Origin: a bacterium HR15
Lineage (GTDB): Bacteria; Armatimonadota; Fimbriimonadia; Fimbriimonadales; GBS-DC
Reading direction: 5' to 3'
NCBI GenBank assembly: GCA_002898555.1
Contig: BEHR01000032.1
Coordinates: forward strand, 1-38,836
Length of the DNA stretch: 38,836 bases
Part shown: positions 1 through 38,836 of the stretch, piece by piece
How positions within the stretch are numbered: position 1 is the first letter of the stretch
Layout: each line of letters begins with the position of its first letter
Program-made: the position numbers and the translations under genes
Notes under the pieces: model-generated
Seen by the model: only the letters and a program-made list of their open reading frames with translations
Database searches by the model: none
What the model was told of the DNA's origin: nothing

Positions 1-138
1 CTGCGCTCAAAATTTTCTTCTCCGGGGTACCCGTCTGGGTCGGAGAAGAAAATTTTGGAGTACCCCAGAGAAAAAATTTTTCCTGAAATTTTTTCTCTGG
101 GGTACTCCGCGCAGCGGGGTCAGAGAAAAAATTTCAGG
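1..138. repeat. Nested palindromic element array at the left end
   Basis: Positions 9-56 are a 48-bp palindrome with AAAATTTT at both ends and arms CTTCTCC/GGAGAAG (flavour A). It sits in the loop of a second palindrome whose right arm (about 58-80) is seen and whose left arm lies outside the window. A complete flavour-C palindrome follows at 82-138, with 18-bp arms 82-99 and 121-138 that are perfectly complementary and a 21-nt loop. Positions 1-99 are an exact reverse complement of 38613-38711, so the contig ends inside inverted copies of the same array. The repeat probably stopped the assembly here. Confidence 0.9.
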
Positions 139-17722: not shown

Positions 17723-17771
17723 CCCTCTGCAGGGCTGTGAAGGACGAAGACGGGTCAGTTCTTGGGTAGAC

Positions 17772-17820
17772 AAAATTTTCTTTTCCAGAGGTACTCTGCA
17801 GAGTCGGAAAAGCAAATTTT
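17772..17820. repeat. Palindromic element, flavour B
   Basis: AAAATTTTCTTTTCC (17772-17786) pairs with GGAAAAGCAAATTTT (17806-17820) with one mismatch. The loop contains GGTACTC and GAGTC, the apex motif of the family in reverse orientation. It lies between the divergent transcripts' ends upstream of the amidotransferase promoter. Confidence 0.85.
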
Positions 17821-17966
17821 GCACATAGGTCTGCCCCTACACGCCAGGAGGCTCGCCTTCCACGCCCCTCGCCCTCTGGGAGAGGGGCTGGAGGTGAGGG
17901 TACGGGGCAGGCACGCAGGTCTGCCCCTACACGCCAGGAGGCTCGCCTTCCAGGAGTTCCGCAGCC
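17821..17966. repeat. Direct repeat pair of an interspersed GC-rich family
   Basis: Two identical 36-bp copies at 17827-17862 and 17917-17952 (each contains CTACACGCCAGGAGGCTCG). Between them is a CCCTC...GAGGG hairpin of the kind widespread between bacterial genes. A diverged copy in reverse orientation lies at 32351-32378. No gene is seen in 17821-17966. Confidence 0.8.
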
Positions 17967-24933: not shown

Positions 24934-24959
24934 CCCCTCTGACTCACCTACGGGCAATG

Positions 24960-25102
24960 TTTTCTTCTCCGACCCTGTAGGCAAAATTTTCTTTTCCGAC
25001 CCAGCAGCAAAATTTTTTTCTCTGACCCAGACGGGTACCCCAGAGAAAAAAATTTTGGGGTACCCCGGAAAAGAAAATTTTGGGCTACCCCAGAGAAGAA
25101 AA
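24960..25102. repeat. Triple-nested palindromic element
   Basis: Three palindromes lie one inside the loop of another. Outer (flavour A): TTTTCTTCT at 24960-24968 with AGAAGAAAA at 25094-25102. Middle (flavour B): 16-bp perfect arms at 24983-24998 and 25066-25081. Inner (flavour C): 16-bp perfect arms at 25009-25024 and 25041-25056, loop ACCCAGACGGGTACCC. Each inner element enters between a GACCC...GC segment and a GGGTACCCC-like segment of the host loop. Arms differ between levels but match within each level. Confidence 0.93.
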
Positions 25103-25166
25103 TATGGGTGATTGTCCCCCTAAAAAGCCCCCTCGTTATCGCCGATAATCTGTGGTGGAGGCAAGC

Positions 25167-26084
25167 ATGTCGTTCCTTCAACGCTTTCTGGGTGTCGGCA
25201 GGAATCACGCTTACGACGAGGGGATTCGCTGCTACGATGAGGGGCGGTTCGAGGACGCGCTCCGCCTGTTCGAGCGCGCGCTGACCGAAACGCGCGATGT
25301 GATGATTCAGAAGCTCGCTCGCTTCTATGTTGCCGAATCGCACGCGCAGTTGGGGCAAGCAGCGCTTCGACGCGGGCATTATGAGTCCGCCGAGGCGCAT
25401 TTCGCTAAAGCGCTGGAGATTCATCCTCACTATGCCGACTTGCACTTCCAGCGTGCTTTCGCCCTGCGCAAGCTCAAAGATTATGACGGCGCACAGTTCC
25501 ACCTTCAGGAGGCGCTGCGTATCAACCCGCGCTTCGCCAAAGCACGGTTGCACTACGGCATTTTGCTCTATGAGACAGGGCGGCGTGAGGAGGCACTGCG
25601 CCATCTGCAGGAAGCGGTCGAGCTTGATCCGGGTTTCCACACTGGGCGCTACGAGGACGCGCTGCGCCACGACCGCGAGGGACGCTATGAGCAAGCCCTC
25701 GCGTTGTTCGAAACGCTCGGCTCCACCTCCGCCGACGACGCGCTTTATCACGCGCAACTGGGCGATGACCTTTATCGGCGAGGCGATTTTGAGGCGGCGG
25801 TGGCAGAATATCGGCGCGCACTCGCCATTCAGCCGCGCTTTGCCGACATTCGCAACCATCTGGGCATGGCGCTCGCTGCGATGGGGCGTGAGGAAGAGGC
25901 CATCCAAGAGTTCCGGCGCGCGCTGGAGATTAACCCCCGCTATGTGGAAGCGCGTTTGAACCTCGCGATTACCCTGCGCGACATGGGGCGCCACGCAGAA
26001 GCGCGCGAGCAATACCTCAAGGTGCTGGAGATCGACCCAGATAACCTCATTGCCCGTAACGCCTTAGCGAATCTGGCAGCCTAA
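25167..26084 (+). CDS. Tetratricopeptide repeat protein
   Basis: 305 residues from the ATG at 25167, which has GGAGG 5 nt upstream. A GTG at 25152 lies just before that site and is less likely. After a short start there are at least seven TPR motifs (for example EGIRCYDEGRFEDALRLFER, AEAHFAKALEIHPHYADLHF, AVAEYRRALAIQPRFADIRN, AIQEFRRALEINPRYVEARL, AREQYLKVLEIDPDNLIARN). No signal peptide or enzymatic domain is present, so it is probably a cytoplasmic scaffold. The stop codon TAA runs directly into a degenerate palindromic repeat (CCTAAAATTTC). Confidence 0.88.
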   Translation: MSFLQRFLGVGRNHAYDEGIRCYDEGRFEDALRLFERALTETRDVMIQKLARFYVAESHAQLGQAALRRGHYESAEAHFAKALEIHPHYADLHFQRAFALRKLKDYDGAQFHLQEALRINPRFAKARLHYGILLYETGRREEALRHLQEAVELDPGFHTGRYEDALRHDREGRYEQALALFETLGSTSADDALYHAQLGDDLYRRGDFEAAVAEYRRALAIQPRFADIRNHLGMALAAMGREEEAIQEFRRALEINPRYVEARLNLAITLRDMGRHAEAREQYLKVLEIDPDNLIARNALANLAA

Positions 26085-26140: not shown

Positions 26141-28276
26141 CTAAACCCGCTGCCCAACCAAATTGCCCTGGGGGTCTACCTCGACTTGCCAGCCCGGCTC
26201 AATGAGCAAAGTGGTGTCGGGCTGGACAATCAGCGCGGGAACAGGCACACGCTGGCGCGGTGACAACGCTTCACGCCACAGCACCGGCACCTCCACCCAT
26301 TCCCCTGACAGATAGAGACGAGTCGTAGGTGGCAGGCGGTGAGGAGCGAGTGGAGTGGAATCCCCATTCGCCCCCAAAATTGTGCCGTCTGGGTCAGAGA
26401 AAACATTTTGCTGCTGAGTCGGCGGAAAAATTTTTGCTTGCCATTCGCCACCCACAGGCTTGGGCTGAAGTGCCACCGCTCGCATGCGCAGGTTGACCAG
26501 CTCCAAGGGGCGTCCTGGCATTGAGAAGCCATAGTGGCGTGCATGCAGCTCGTGGAACATTTCAGCCGTGCGCTGGGGCTGTGCGGGATCGAACAGCACG
26601 GTGATCTCATACGACTGCCCCCGATAGCGCAGATCAGCATAGAGAGAATAATGCGCTGCTTCGGGCGCAGCGCCTGCCTCCTGAAGCGCCTGCGCACATT
26701 CTTGGTGCAGCTCGTGGAGGAGGCTGCCATACCCATTGAGATATGCCCCTTGCCACTCGCCGCTTGCAAATGGCGTTCCCAGCACCGTACGCACCGCCTC
26801 ATGGACCACATCCATCCAGAGTAAACCGTAGGCAGAGAGTACCCCGGGAAAGCGCGGAAGAAGCCAGCGTCTGACCCCCAGTAGCCGAGCAAGTGCTGTG
26901 GTGTGGAGCGGTCCTGCGCCTCCGAATGCCAGCAGGGTGAAGTCCGCAGGGTCATAGCCGCGCGCTGCGGAGACCAGCCGCAGCGCTTTCGCCATGCGCG
27001 CCCGTGCCTGCTCCAAAATGGCTTCCGCCGTTTCGGGAACGCTGATTCCTAATGCCCGTGCCAGTGGCTCCAGCGCACGCCACGCGCCCTCCGGCTGAAG
27101 GGGGAGTTGCCCGAAGCCGAAAGTTTCGGGCAGCAAGTGCCCCAACACGACATGGGCATCCGTCACGGTGGGCAGGTCGCCCTTGCCATAGGCAGCGGGA
27201 CCGGGATCGGCTGCTGCACTTTGGGGACCGACGCGCAGGCTACCCGCCGCGTCCAGAGAGGCGATGGAACCCCCACCCGCTCCAATCGTGTGAATTTCCA
27301 GCTGGGGCAATCGGATGGGCATGCCTGCGACTTCAGATAATCCCACCCGTGTTGGCTCTTTGTCGATCAGGGCAACATCGGTGGAAGTGCCCCCCATATC
27401 GAAGGTGAGCAGGCGCGGATGCCCGCTCTGCCGCCCAACCGCCCACGCGCCCATCACGCCCGCTGCCGGACCAGAGAGCACCGTGCTAATCGGCAGTCTG
27501 CACGCTTGCGCAACCCCCATCAGCCCCCCGTTCGAATGGCTCAATAGGAGCGATGCGGTCGTCGCCCCCCGCAGGTTTTCTCGTTGGAAACCTTCTGGGT
27601 CGGAGAAGGTTATTTTGGTCTGAAGGGCATGCAGGTAGCGTGTGAGGATAGGCATGAGATAGGCGTTCAAAAAGGTGGTGGAGGCGCGTTCATATTCGCG
27701 AAACTCGGGCGCGACCTCGCTGGAGAGCGAGACGGGGAAATGGGGCGAAAGCAGCTCGCCCAAGCGACGCTCATGCGCCGGATTCGCATAGGAGAAGAGC
27801 AGGCAGACGGCGACGGCTTCCACACCGTCCCGTTTCCAGCGGCGAATGAGCCGTGGCAATCCGCTCGTGTCCAGCGGTTGCAGCACCATCCCGTCGTAGG
27901 CTATCCGTTCGGGCACTTCGGCACAGAGGGCGCGCTCTGCCAAGCAGGGTGCCGGCTGCGGACAGAGGCTATAGAGTTCACGGCGGGTCTGACGCGCCAA
28001 AAACAGCAGGTCGCGAAACCCCTCCGTGGTCAAAAATGCCACGCGTGCGCCCTTGCGCTCTAAAAGAGCGTTCGTGCCGACCGTCGTGCCATGCAGCAGG
28101 AGCAGGTGGGAGGGCTTGCTCTGCACGATCTGCGCCACTCCCTGCAGCACCGCCTGCTCAGGCGCGGCAGGCGTGGAGGGCACTTTAAGCAAATACAGCT
28201 GCTGACCGTTCCACGCGATGAAGTCGGTGAAAGTCCCGCCCGTATCTACGCCGATGCGCCACCCGCTGTGTGCCAT
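26141..28276 (-). CDS. Hydantoinase A / 5-oxoprolinase-like ATPase subunit
   Basis: 711 residues. The N-terminal hydantoinase/oxoprolinase domain has GVDTGGTFTDF (9-19), and the actin-like ATPase core has FDMGGTSTDV (about 290) and LSGPAAGVMGAW. Family members hydrolyse ATP to open hydantoin or 5-oxoproline rings or carboxylate acetone. The partner subunit (HyuB) is absent from the window, so the substrate is unknown. It starts 6 bp after the cystathionine gene, so the two are cotranscribed. Oddities: two in-frame segments match the palindromic repeat (residues of about 220-236 with FSDPEGFQREN and about 613-634 with NVFSDPDGT). Two short GEWQ-coding repeats also occur. Confidence 0.87.
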   Translation of the reverse strand: MAHSGWRIGVDTGGTFTDFIAWNGQQLYLLKVPSTPAAPEQAVLQGVAQIVQSKPSHLLLLHGTTVGTNALLERKGARVAFLTTEGFRDLLFLARQTRRELYSLCPQPAPCLAERALCAEVPERIAYDGMVLQPLDTSGLPRLIRRWKRDGVEAVAVCLLFSYANPAHERRLGELLSPHFPVSLSSEVAPEFREYERASTTFLNAYLMPILTRYLHALQTKITFSDPEGFQRENLRGATTASLLLSHSNGGLMGVAQACRLPISTVLSGPAAGVMGAWAVGRQSGHPRLLTFDMGGTSTDVALIDKEPTRVGLSEVAGMPIRLPQLEIHTIGAGGGSIASLDAAGSLRVGPQSAAADPGPAAYGKGDLPTVTDAHVVLGHLLPETFGFGQLPLQPEGAWRALEPLARALGISVPETAEAILEQARARMAKALRLVSAARGYDPADFTLLAFGGAGPLHTTALARLLGVRRWLLPRFPGVLSAYGLLWMDVVHEAVRTVLGTPFASGEWQGAYLNGYGSLLHELHQECAQALQEAGAAPEAAHYSLYADLRYRGQSYEITVLFDPAQPQRTAEMFHELHARHYGFSMPGRPLELVNLRMRAVALQPKPVGGEWQAKIFPPTQQQNVFSDPDGTILGANGDSTPLAPHRLPPTTRLYLSGEWVEVPVLWREALSPRQRVPVPALIVQPDTTLLIEPGWQVEVDPQGNLVGQRV
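26375..26437. repeat. Nested palindromic element remnant inside the HyuA-like gene
   Basis: On the coding strand this matches the left middle arm and left inner arm of the nested element at 24981-25035: CCGACYCAGCAGCAAAAT, then TTTTCTCTGACCCAGACGG with few differences. The inner right arm is mostly deleted. It reads in frame as KIFPPTQQQNVFSDPDGTIL. Confidence 0.8.
26437..26453. repeat. Short GEWQ-coding repeat copy
   Basis: On the coding strand GTGGCGAATGGCAAG, encoding GGEWQA, directly precedes the palindromic remnant. It is similar to the blocks at 7198-7230 and 26745-26775. Confidence 0.35.
26745..26775. repeat. GAGTGGCA-type repeat inside the HyuA-like gene
   Basis: On the coding strand GCAAGCGGCGAGTGGCAAGG, encoding ASGEWQG, matches the repeat in the PBP2 gene (GCAAGTAGCGAGTGGCAGG) with three differences. 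Confidence 0.5.
27571..27618. repeat. Decayed flavour-A palindromic element inside the HyuA-like gene
   Basis: On the coding strand CAAAATAACCTTCTCCGACC and the following AAGGTTTCCAACGAGAAAA align along the full length of the intact flavour-A element. The in-frame product KITFSDPEGFQRENL aligns with the peptide the intact element would encode (FSDPDGYPxEE/REK). Confidence 0.75.
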
Positions 28277-36922: not shown

Positions 36923-36975
36923 TGAAATTTTTTCTCTGACCCCGCTGCGCGGAGTACCCCAGAGAAAAAATTTCA
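36923..36975. repeat. Intact single flavour-C palindromic element
   Basis: Perfect 16-bp arms TGAAATTTTTTCTCTG (36923-36938) and complement (36960-36975). The loop reads ACCCCGCTGCGCGGAGTACCC. This is an 'empty site' form of the array unit at 38526, in which a flavour-A element splits the same loop after GCTGCGC. Confidence 0.92.
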
Positions 36976-36995: not shown

Positions 36996-38528
36996 ATGGA
37001 CTATCTTGTGGAGATGCGCGGCATCACGAAACGATTCGGCGCGCTGGTCGCGAATGAGCGGGTCGACCTCCATGTGCGCGCGGGCACATTACACGCGATT
37101 GTAGGTGAAAACGGCGCGGGCAAAACCACACTCATGCGCATCCTCTACGGCTATTATCAGCCCGATGAGGGCGCGATCTATCTGAAAGGCAGGCGCGTGC
37201 GTTTCACCAGCCCTGCGGACGCGATTGCCCATGGCGTCGGCATGGTCAGCCAGCACTACAGCATCATCCCTGAGCTGAGCGTTCTGGATAACTTGATGTT
37301 AGGCGCGGAGGTGGCGGGCGCAATGGGCGTTCTGCATCGTCGAGCGGCTCGCCAGCGTGCGGAGAGCCTCGCACGAAGCCTGGAGTTCGAAGCCGACTGG
37401 AACCGCCCTGCTGCGGAACTGAGCGTCGCGGCGCGTCAGAAGCTGGAGATTCTGAAACTGCTATGGCGCAACGCCGAAATTCTGATTCTGGATGAGCCAA
37501 CGGCGATGCTCTCACCTGCCGATGTGCAGACGCTGTTCGAAGTGCTGCTGCGCCTGAAAGCGGAAGGGCGCACCATCTTGCTCGTGACGCATAAGTTGCA
37601 GGAGGTGCTGGACTATGCCGACATGGTGACGGTGCTGCGCGGGGGACGCAAAGTCGCCGAGGCGCCTGTCAGCGAGACCGACGCATCCATGCTCACCCGC
37701 TGGATTATTGGGGAAGAGACCCAGGAGCCATCCAATAAGCCTGACAGGGTATCCATCGCAGAACCTCAAAGAGCCGCCTCCAAACCCCCACGCCTTGCCA
37801 TCGAATCGCTCTATGTACGCTCTGATCGGGGTGGATGGGGCGTGCAGGAGTTGGGTTTACAGATTGCTCCCGGCGAGATTTTTGGGTTGGCAGGTGTGGA
37901 TGGCAACGGACAGCAGGAACTGGTCGAGGCACTAACGGGGCTGCGCCCTGCAGCGCAGGGACATATGCGACTGGACGGCGTGCCCTTTGAAAAATGGAGT
38001 CCTGCCAAACGCTTGCACGCCGGCATCCGCTTCCTGTTCGATGACCGCTTCCGGCGCGGCATGATTGCGACATGGAGCGTGATGGAGAACGCGATTCTGG
38101 GCGCGCAGCGTGAACGGGAGTTGCAGCGATGGGGTTGGCTGCGTCCGAATGCCGTTCGTCAACGCGCCATGCAGCTCGTGGAACGATTTCAGGTGAAAGT
38201 GCCCTCGCTGCGTGCGCCGATGACGGCGCTATCGGGTGGCAATCAGCAGCGGCTAATGGTAGCGCGCGCCTTGCACGGTCAGCCACGCCTGCTCGTTGCT
38301 TATGCGCCCACGCGCGGGCTGGATATTCGCGGCACAGAGGCAACCTACAGCGCGATCCGAGAAGCATGTCAGCAAGGCATGGCCGCGCTGGTCATCTCGC
38401 TCGACCTGGACGAACTGATGGAGCATTGCGACCGCATCGGCGTGCTGTATCGCGGGCGCATCGCCAAAGTGTTTGAGCGCGATGAGTTCTCGCGCGAAGC
38501 CATCGGCGCGGCAATGGTCGGCGTGTGA
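36996..38528 (+). CDS. Double-ATPase subunit of a nucleoside/simple-sugar ABC importer
   Basis: 510 residues with AAGGGAG upstream. Two ABC domains are fused. The first has a complete Walker A (GENGAGKTT, 37-45), a signature-like ELSVAARQ (141-148) and Walker B (EILILDEPTA, 161-170). The second has a degenerate Walker A (GVDGNGQQE) but a good LSGGNQQR signature, so one site is probably catalytic. The layout matches the YufO/NupO and RbsA/XylG type, which works with a substrate-binding lipoprotein and two permeases for nucleosides or sugars. These should lie past the window. The stop codon TGA lies inside the left arm of the adjacent palindromic repeat. Confidence 0.9.
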   Translation: MDYLVEMRGITKRFGALVANERVDLHVRAGTLHAIVGENGAGKTTLMRILYGYYQPDEGAIYLKGRRVRFTSPADAIAHGVGMVSQHYSIIPELSVLDNLMLGAEVAGAMGVLHRRAARQRAESLARSLEFEADWNRPAAELSVAARQKLEILKLLWRNAEILILDEPTAMLSPADVQTLFEVLLRLKAEGRTILLVTHKLQEVLDYADMVTVLRGGRKVAEAPVSETDASMLTRWIIGEETQEPSNKPDRVSIAEPQRAASKPPRLAIESLYVRSDRGGWGVQELGLQIAPGEIFGLAGVDGNGQQELVEALTGLRPAAQGHMRLDGVPFEKWSPAKRLHAGIRFLFDDRFRRGMIATWSVMENAILGAQRERELQRWGWLRPNAVRQRAMQLVERFQVKVPSLRAPMTALSGGNQQRLMVARALHGQPRLLVAYAPTRGLDIRGTEATYSAIREACQQGMAALVISLDLDELMEHCDRIGVLYRGRIAKVFERDEFSREAIGAAMVGV

Positions 38529-38836
38529 AATTTTTTCTCTGGGGTACTCCAAAATTTTCTTCTCCGACCCAGACGGGTACCCCGGAGAAGAAAATTTTGA
38601 GCGCAGCTGGGTCAGAGAAAAAATTTCAGGAAAAATTTTTTCTCTGGGGTACTCCAAAATTTTCTTCTCCGACCCAGACGGGTACCCCGGAGAAGAAAAT
38701 TTTGAGCGCAGCTGGGTCAGAGAAAAAATTTCAGGAAAAATTTTTTCTCTGGGGTACTCCAAAATTTTCTTCTCCGACCCAGACGGGTACCCCGGAGAAG
38801 AAAATTTTGAGCGCAGCTGGGTCAGAGAAAAAATTT
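38526..38836. repeat. Tandem array of nested palindromic elements at the right end
   Basis: Three units with a period of 105 bp. Each unit is a flavour-C palindrome (arms starting at 38526, 38633 and 38738) with a flavour-A palindrome in its loop (first copy 38551-38598). The units look identical base for base where they can be compared. The window stops at the end of the third right arm (CAGAGAAAAAATTT). The first left arm supplies the ABC gene's TGA stop codon. Confidence 0.93.

Follow-up and report, generated by a model that had tools for sequence, protein, structure and literature searches.

It has long been asked how tiny palindromes without genes of their own spread through the DNA of mitochondria, plastids and bacteria. 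In the mitochondrial and plastid DNA of Volvox carteri, short palindromic repeats have inserted into one another (PMC2670323). The double-hairpin elements of Allomyces mtDNA and the repetitive hairpins of sponge mtDNA are described as mobile hairpins without target duplications, and an RNA intermediate was suggested for the former (PMC2800124, citing Paquin 2000). Yeast mitochondrial GC clusters merge and shuffle, and include GC42, a palindromic mobile element of 42 nt (PMC4478555). Among bacteria, Rickettsia palindromic elements (RPE) lie in frame in unrelated genes and contribute a conserved peptide (PMC10969869). In pneumococcus, the small repeats BOX, RUP and SPRITE occur inserted in each other (PMC3049150).

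The hairpins described here show, in a bacterium, a behaviour that has been reported chiefly from mitochondria and chloroplasts. They were found in contig C32 (hereafter the window, the whole stretch of 38,836 nt that was analysed) of a hot-spring bacterium genome (3.04 Mb, 72 contigs, 98% complete). As in Volvox, complete palindromes lie within palindromes. The Volvox repeats though reside in organelle DNA and have loops of 3-5 nt, whereas the hairpins here occupy a bacterial chromosome, have long loops in which the acceptor point is defined, alternate between subfamilies and have copies in frame in genes. The Allomyces and sponge hairpins are tandem or double as far as the available part of the account goes (PMC2800124), whereas the nests here are concentric and occupy a fixed place in the loop. 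GC42 has AG target nucleotides at its ends and clusters merge, while nesting here is loop-specific (PMC4478555). In-frame insertion into conserved protein genes is shared with RPE. The available part of the RPE description sets these elements apart by a length of about 150 bp, against a unit of ~50 bp in a Fimbriimonadales-like genome here, and does not mention sister-loop nesting (PMC10969869). For BOX, RUP and SPRITE, insertion is occasional and the available part of the report gives no fixed concentric acceptor site (PMC3049150). As short, high-copy bacterial palindromes the hairpins resemble REP/REPIN sequences, but they have neither an intact RAYT nor a tetranucleotide foot and sit inside one another instead of forming adjacent pairs. 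The small dispersed repeats of cyanobacteria, reportedly treated by Elhai in 2008, are another likely comparison.

A sequence-only reading of the window knew of no described element with such behaviour in this group. This holds for a fixed loop acceptor combined with subfamily alternation and in-frame nesting in a bacterial genome, a combination not found in the literature consulted, but not for nesting itself, which is known from green-algal organelles and, less regularly, from pneumococcal repeats. The nests record the order of insertion, and their empty and filled sites can be matched exactly in a bacterial genome that has only tens of copies. The joining reaction and its target could thereby be worked out through strain comparison.

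The triple nest and its family

Arm parsing confirmed the three concentric palindromes that had been noticed at 24960-25102, with slightly wider coordinates (24955-25107; Table 1). The DNA fold of the nest has a predicted energy of -49.6 kcal/mol compared to -19.9 +/- 3.3 for shuffled sequences (z -8.9; 0/200 shuffles). The window contains 21 arm half-sites against 0.31 expected and five loop motifs against 0 expected. Every guest of the nest sits at the identical loop position. Empty and singly filled copies with the same loop and arms occur at three further places in the window. The nest occupies an intergenic gap, and the syntenic gap in two relatives (L155, L156) measures 44 nt and 11 nt and is hairpin-free. 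The UDP-glucose dehydrogenase-like gene bordering the gap has its nearest named relatives in Fimbriimonadales MAGs.

Table 1. Hairpin elements of the window and the gap that holds the triple nest (X{Y}, host X filled by guest Y).
Feature	Position	Strand	Details
B{A1} composite cut by contig end, followed by an empty B	1..138	-	A1 arms 8-24 / 41-57; empty B about 84-136
Diverged single A2-like element	17771..17821	.	loop ACTCTGCAGAGTACCTC; within a C-type repeat
Intergenic gap	24934..25166	+	233 nt; UDP-glucose dehydrogenase-like gene ends 24933; TPR gene ATG at 25167
Outer palindrome of the nest, A1-like, decayed	24955..25107	.	arms 24955-24971 / 25091-25107, 3 mismatches; loop halves ACCCTGTAGG / GGCTACCC; host of the middle element
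Middle palindrome, A2 (CAAAATTTTCTTTTCCG)	24982..25082	.	arms 24982-24998 / 25066-25082, perfect; loop halves ACCCAGCAG / GGGTACCC
Inner palindrome, B' (CAAAATTTTTTTCTCTG)	25008..25057	.	arms 25008-25024 / 25041-25057, perfect; empty 16-nt loop ACCCAGACGGGTACCC
Empty B element	36923..36975	+	loop ACCCCGCTGCGCGGAGTACCC
Three tandem B{A1} copies	38526..38836	.	period 105; running off the contig end

The family unit is a hairpin of ~50 bp with a loop of 16-21 nt. Genome-wide, the loop motif has 64 matches at up to two mismatches (reversed-pattern control, 0) and there are 161 arm half-sites (control, 0). A longer loop pattern has 82 matches at up to three mismatches in this genome and at most one, a chance-level number, in any of 40 relatives. 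The single loop match in one relative (G015) is chance coding sequence. The exact pattern was absent from the genome contigs and viral contigs searched, and the element had no plasmid match and no Rfam family. Copies were gathered by motif, and the 82 clusters recovered are thus a sample from which strongly decayed copies are missing.

Arms were assigned by script to the subfamilies A1 (CAAAATTTTCTTCTCCG), A2 (CAAAATTTTCTTTTCCG), B (TGAAATTTTTTCTCTG) and B' (CAAAATTTTTT(T)CTCTG). Elements of A1, A2 and B' run from C to G and those of B from T to A, with the end sequences C AAAATTTT...AAAATTTT G or TGAAATTT...AAATTTCA. Larger inverted repeats form further outer shells around nests (L016, L019, L037, L038, L071 and others). 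Shell repeat C reads GGAGGGCGAGCCTCC...GGGGCAGAC...GTCTGCCCC and shell repeat D has the ends GGGTGTTCGAAAATTC; both occur in versions with a single hairpin and with several. The genome is fragmented, often at hairpin repeats. Contigs end inside repeats at positions 1 and 38836 of the window (with the 105-bp tandem B{A1} array) and at the starts of contigs C34 and C67. Copy number at such repeat-bounded contig ends has likely been collapsed by assembly.

A fixed entry point in the loop

A census of the 82 clusters by nesting state counted 82 hosts that were empty and 37 that contained a complete guest. The maximum complete depth was 0 in six clusters (unpaired arms), 1 in 46, 2 in 26, 3 in three and 4 in one. 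Guests entered directly 5' of GRGTACCC or variants in all cases, which bears out, both in the window and genome-wide, the earlier proposal that guests share one dedicated nesting site. The acceptor site is off-centre, after position 9-10 of a 16-nt loop or position 13 of a 21-nt loop. In B hosts, the empty loop ACCCAGCTTCGCTGAGTACCC (21 nt) equals the filled loop minus a C...G guest, and 10 of 12 filled loops retain 21 nt. In A and B' hosts, the filled loop mostly has 17-18 nt compared to 16 nt when empty, with one or two extra G. An unrelated palindromic host (C) is cut exactly, as GCAGACCTCCGTG^TCTGCCC, by a C...G guest at five loci, and empty copies of this host are present elsewhere in the DNA around family matches. 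A standard MITE mobilized by a DDE transposase is argued against because the joins are exact and lack a target site duplication of fixed length, with 0 nt where the host is B or C and 1-2 G where it is A.

Empty and filled pairs exist at three levels, namely within host types, among paralogous loci and among orthologues. Empty hosts were found for every host type. In paralogue series E, L057 is empty while L015 and L083 are filled. In series D, L038 and L055 carry A2 only, compared to A2{B'} in L014, L008 and L077. Outer insertions lie mostly outside palindromes. A stem of at least 6 bp was found in 5 of 63 flank pairs against a permutation mean of 2.4, which leaves palindrome-tip targeting unsupported as a general rule for outer insertions.

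Successive insertion at a fixed loop site very likely accounts for the nests. An unlikely alternative is that nesting happened only a few times, and that the composites B{A1} and A2{B'} then spread whole, by transposition or by duplication of the C and D repeats. Nearly identical A2{B'} in C- and D-type flanks would fit such a history, as would B{A1} at many sites and in tandem. However, the junctions of the 37 filled hosts form 24 distinct left/right combinations, several host and guest combinations exist, paralogous loci hold the same host with only part of the nest, and empty hosts of all types persist. Composite spread also leaves unexplained why the first nestings share a loop position across host types. 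Some of the copies may nevertheless stem from the spread of already nested composites. Many nested copies share the outer flanks of hosts C and D, which puts the number of independent insertions below 37.

The junctions also bear on a rather improbable route in which a hairpin nuclease such as SbcCD opens the loop of an extruded palindrome by cutting, and end joining then captures a short hairpin fragment that is free. Loop insertion, the lack of a fixed target duplication and the small additions in A hosts would all follow, but no Ku was found in the genome, the B and C junctions are base-exact, and guests are complete with defined ends.

Alternating partners and the joining reaction

Hosts and guests combine across subfamilies. 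A2 hosts hold B' in 15 pairs, B or B' hosts hold A1 in 10 and A2 in eight (two of these guests typed by eye), and A1 hosts hold A2 in two. Composites include B{A1}, B{A2}, A2{B'}, A2{B'{A2}} and B{A1{A2{B'}}}. Nests of like in like number 0 of 35 typed pairs against 12.6 expected from label shuffling, a test that errs on the optimistic side since copies with common flanks are not independent events. The sequence-only reading suggested that the element targets its own apex, and here it has to be revised. Guest and host always belong to different subfamilies, the site is off-centre, and insertions also occur in the unrelated palindromic host C and in palindrome-free genes. The label self-nesting is not quite right, as subfamilies alternate. 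In 19 pairs the outer arms have the greater number of mismatches, and in six the inner arms do (p = 0.015), which is what a greater age of the outer elements would produce.

Asymmetric, half-deleted clusters (++-, +--, +++-) are frequent and look like nests that lost arms through recombination between direct repeats. Such clusters, together with arms that remain complementary, could also be produced without any mobility by replication slippage that duplicates half-units, after which one arm serves as the template for its partner (quasi-palindrome correction). This explanation is highly improbable. Slippage predicts duplication of the neighboring arm and thus like in like, contrary to the observed alternation, and guests are complete elements that also occur alone at unrelated sites and in genes.

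The data show that the elements are mobile, that they enter at one fixed point and that nests gain their later members on the inside. In the reading favored here, the hairpin loop (16-21 nt) of each element carries the acceptor point, and nests grow from the outside inwards. New copies would land at dispersed positions, some of them in frame within genes, and would prefer the loop acceptor point of a copy that belongs to a different subfamily. Nests of like in like may never be made, or their identical arms, being direct repeats, may be rapidly deleted. The true target might be the loop in its folded state, where a cruciform or the lagging strand leaves it single-stranded. The donor might be a short single strand that has folded, or a copy derived from RNA, and a putative trans-acting enzyme would join it without a fixed target duplication. 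We tentatively favor a route in which an extruded hairpin exposes its loop as a single strand and a short folded strand is joined into this loop. More broadly, it is conceivable, though doubtful, that the loop of a bacterial mobile hairpin system acts as a structure-recognized acceptor for partner subfamilies. Elements would then nest concentrically and spare further genes from damage, by a joining without target duplication that is undescribed in bacteria. Considered jointly with successive loop insertion, a lineage-restricted family of non-autonomous mobile palindromes of ~50 bp is probably the best explanation. The one or two additional G at junctions in A hosts are unaccounted for and count against it, as does the lack of a usable mobilizing enzyme in the genome among the Y1/RAYT and IS110 searches.

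Membership in the IS110/bridge RNA group was rejected, as the genome has no Transposase_20 match. Movement of a REP/BIME-type element by a RAYT (Y1) transposase is barely credible and already largely refuted. It would suit short, high-copy palindromes, and the genome does encode one Y1_Tnp match. This only match (L089) has however lost the HUH histidines, with NQVNLLI where active members have HxH (e.g., NHVHLLI), it carries a C-terminal extension, no hairpin copy lies beside the gene, and the element ends show no GTAG/CGTC foot. The gene lies between HIT-like and Der-like genes (contig C10, 34510-34848). The C-terminal extension resembles a helix-turn-helix, and the protein looks domesticated. 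The only RVT_1 match is a protein of 897 aa followed by Cas2 (L132 478-3171, minus strand, on contig C35). From the domains read in its sequence, we take it to be a Cas6-RT-Cas1 fusion. As the only reverse transcriptase, next to Cas2, it is a speculative source of the joining activity.

Insertions within genes

In housekeeping genes of this genome, single or nested palindromes add 16 to 47 residues. The argC genes of relatives, with identities of up to 83%, match about residues 11-106 and, on adjoining DNA, 132-387. Because the alignment continues on both sides, residues 107-131 (25 residues) are identified as an inserted nest, in frame and partly deleted, inside the NAD-binding domain. The junction is not placeable to the base because neighboring codons have drifted. 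A three-level nest of ~47 codons (about residues 241-287) in a 3-keto-disaccharide hydrolase gene is likewise missing from relatives. Single in-frame copies of ~48 bp occur in amidase, MiaB-like, AAA and helicase genes, among others, and the amidase segment is missing from solved amidases. Orthologous loci thus exist with and without the element, as uninterrupted gene orthologues and as the hairpin-free syntenic gaps of the window nest. Mobility, which the sequence-only reading had proposed for a small hairpin, is supported by these absences.

Within the window, a decayed element-like stretch at 26395-26434 lies in a hydantoinase-like gene, with the in-frame reading KIFPPTQQQNVFSD. In four intragenic copies (L003, L074, L063 and L083:2715), the ends are altered yet largely complementary (AGGATTTT...AAAATCCT, AGAATTTT...AAAATTCT), and these copies are mostly in one reading frame (FSSPGYPSGSEKKIL).
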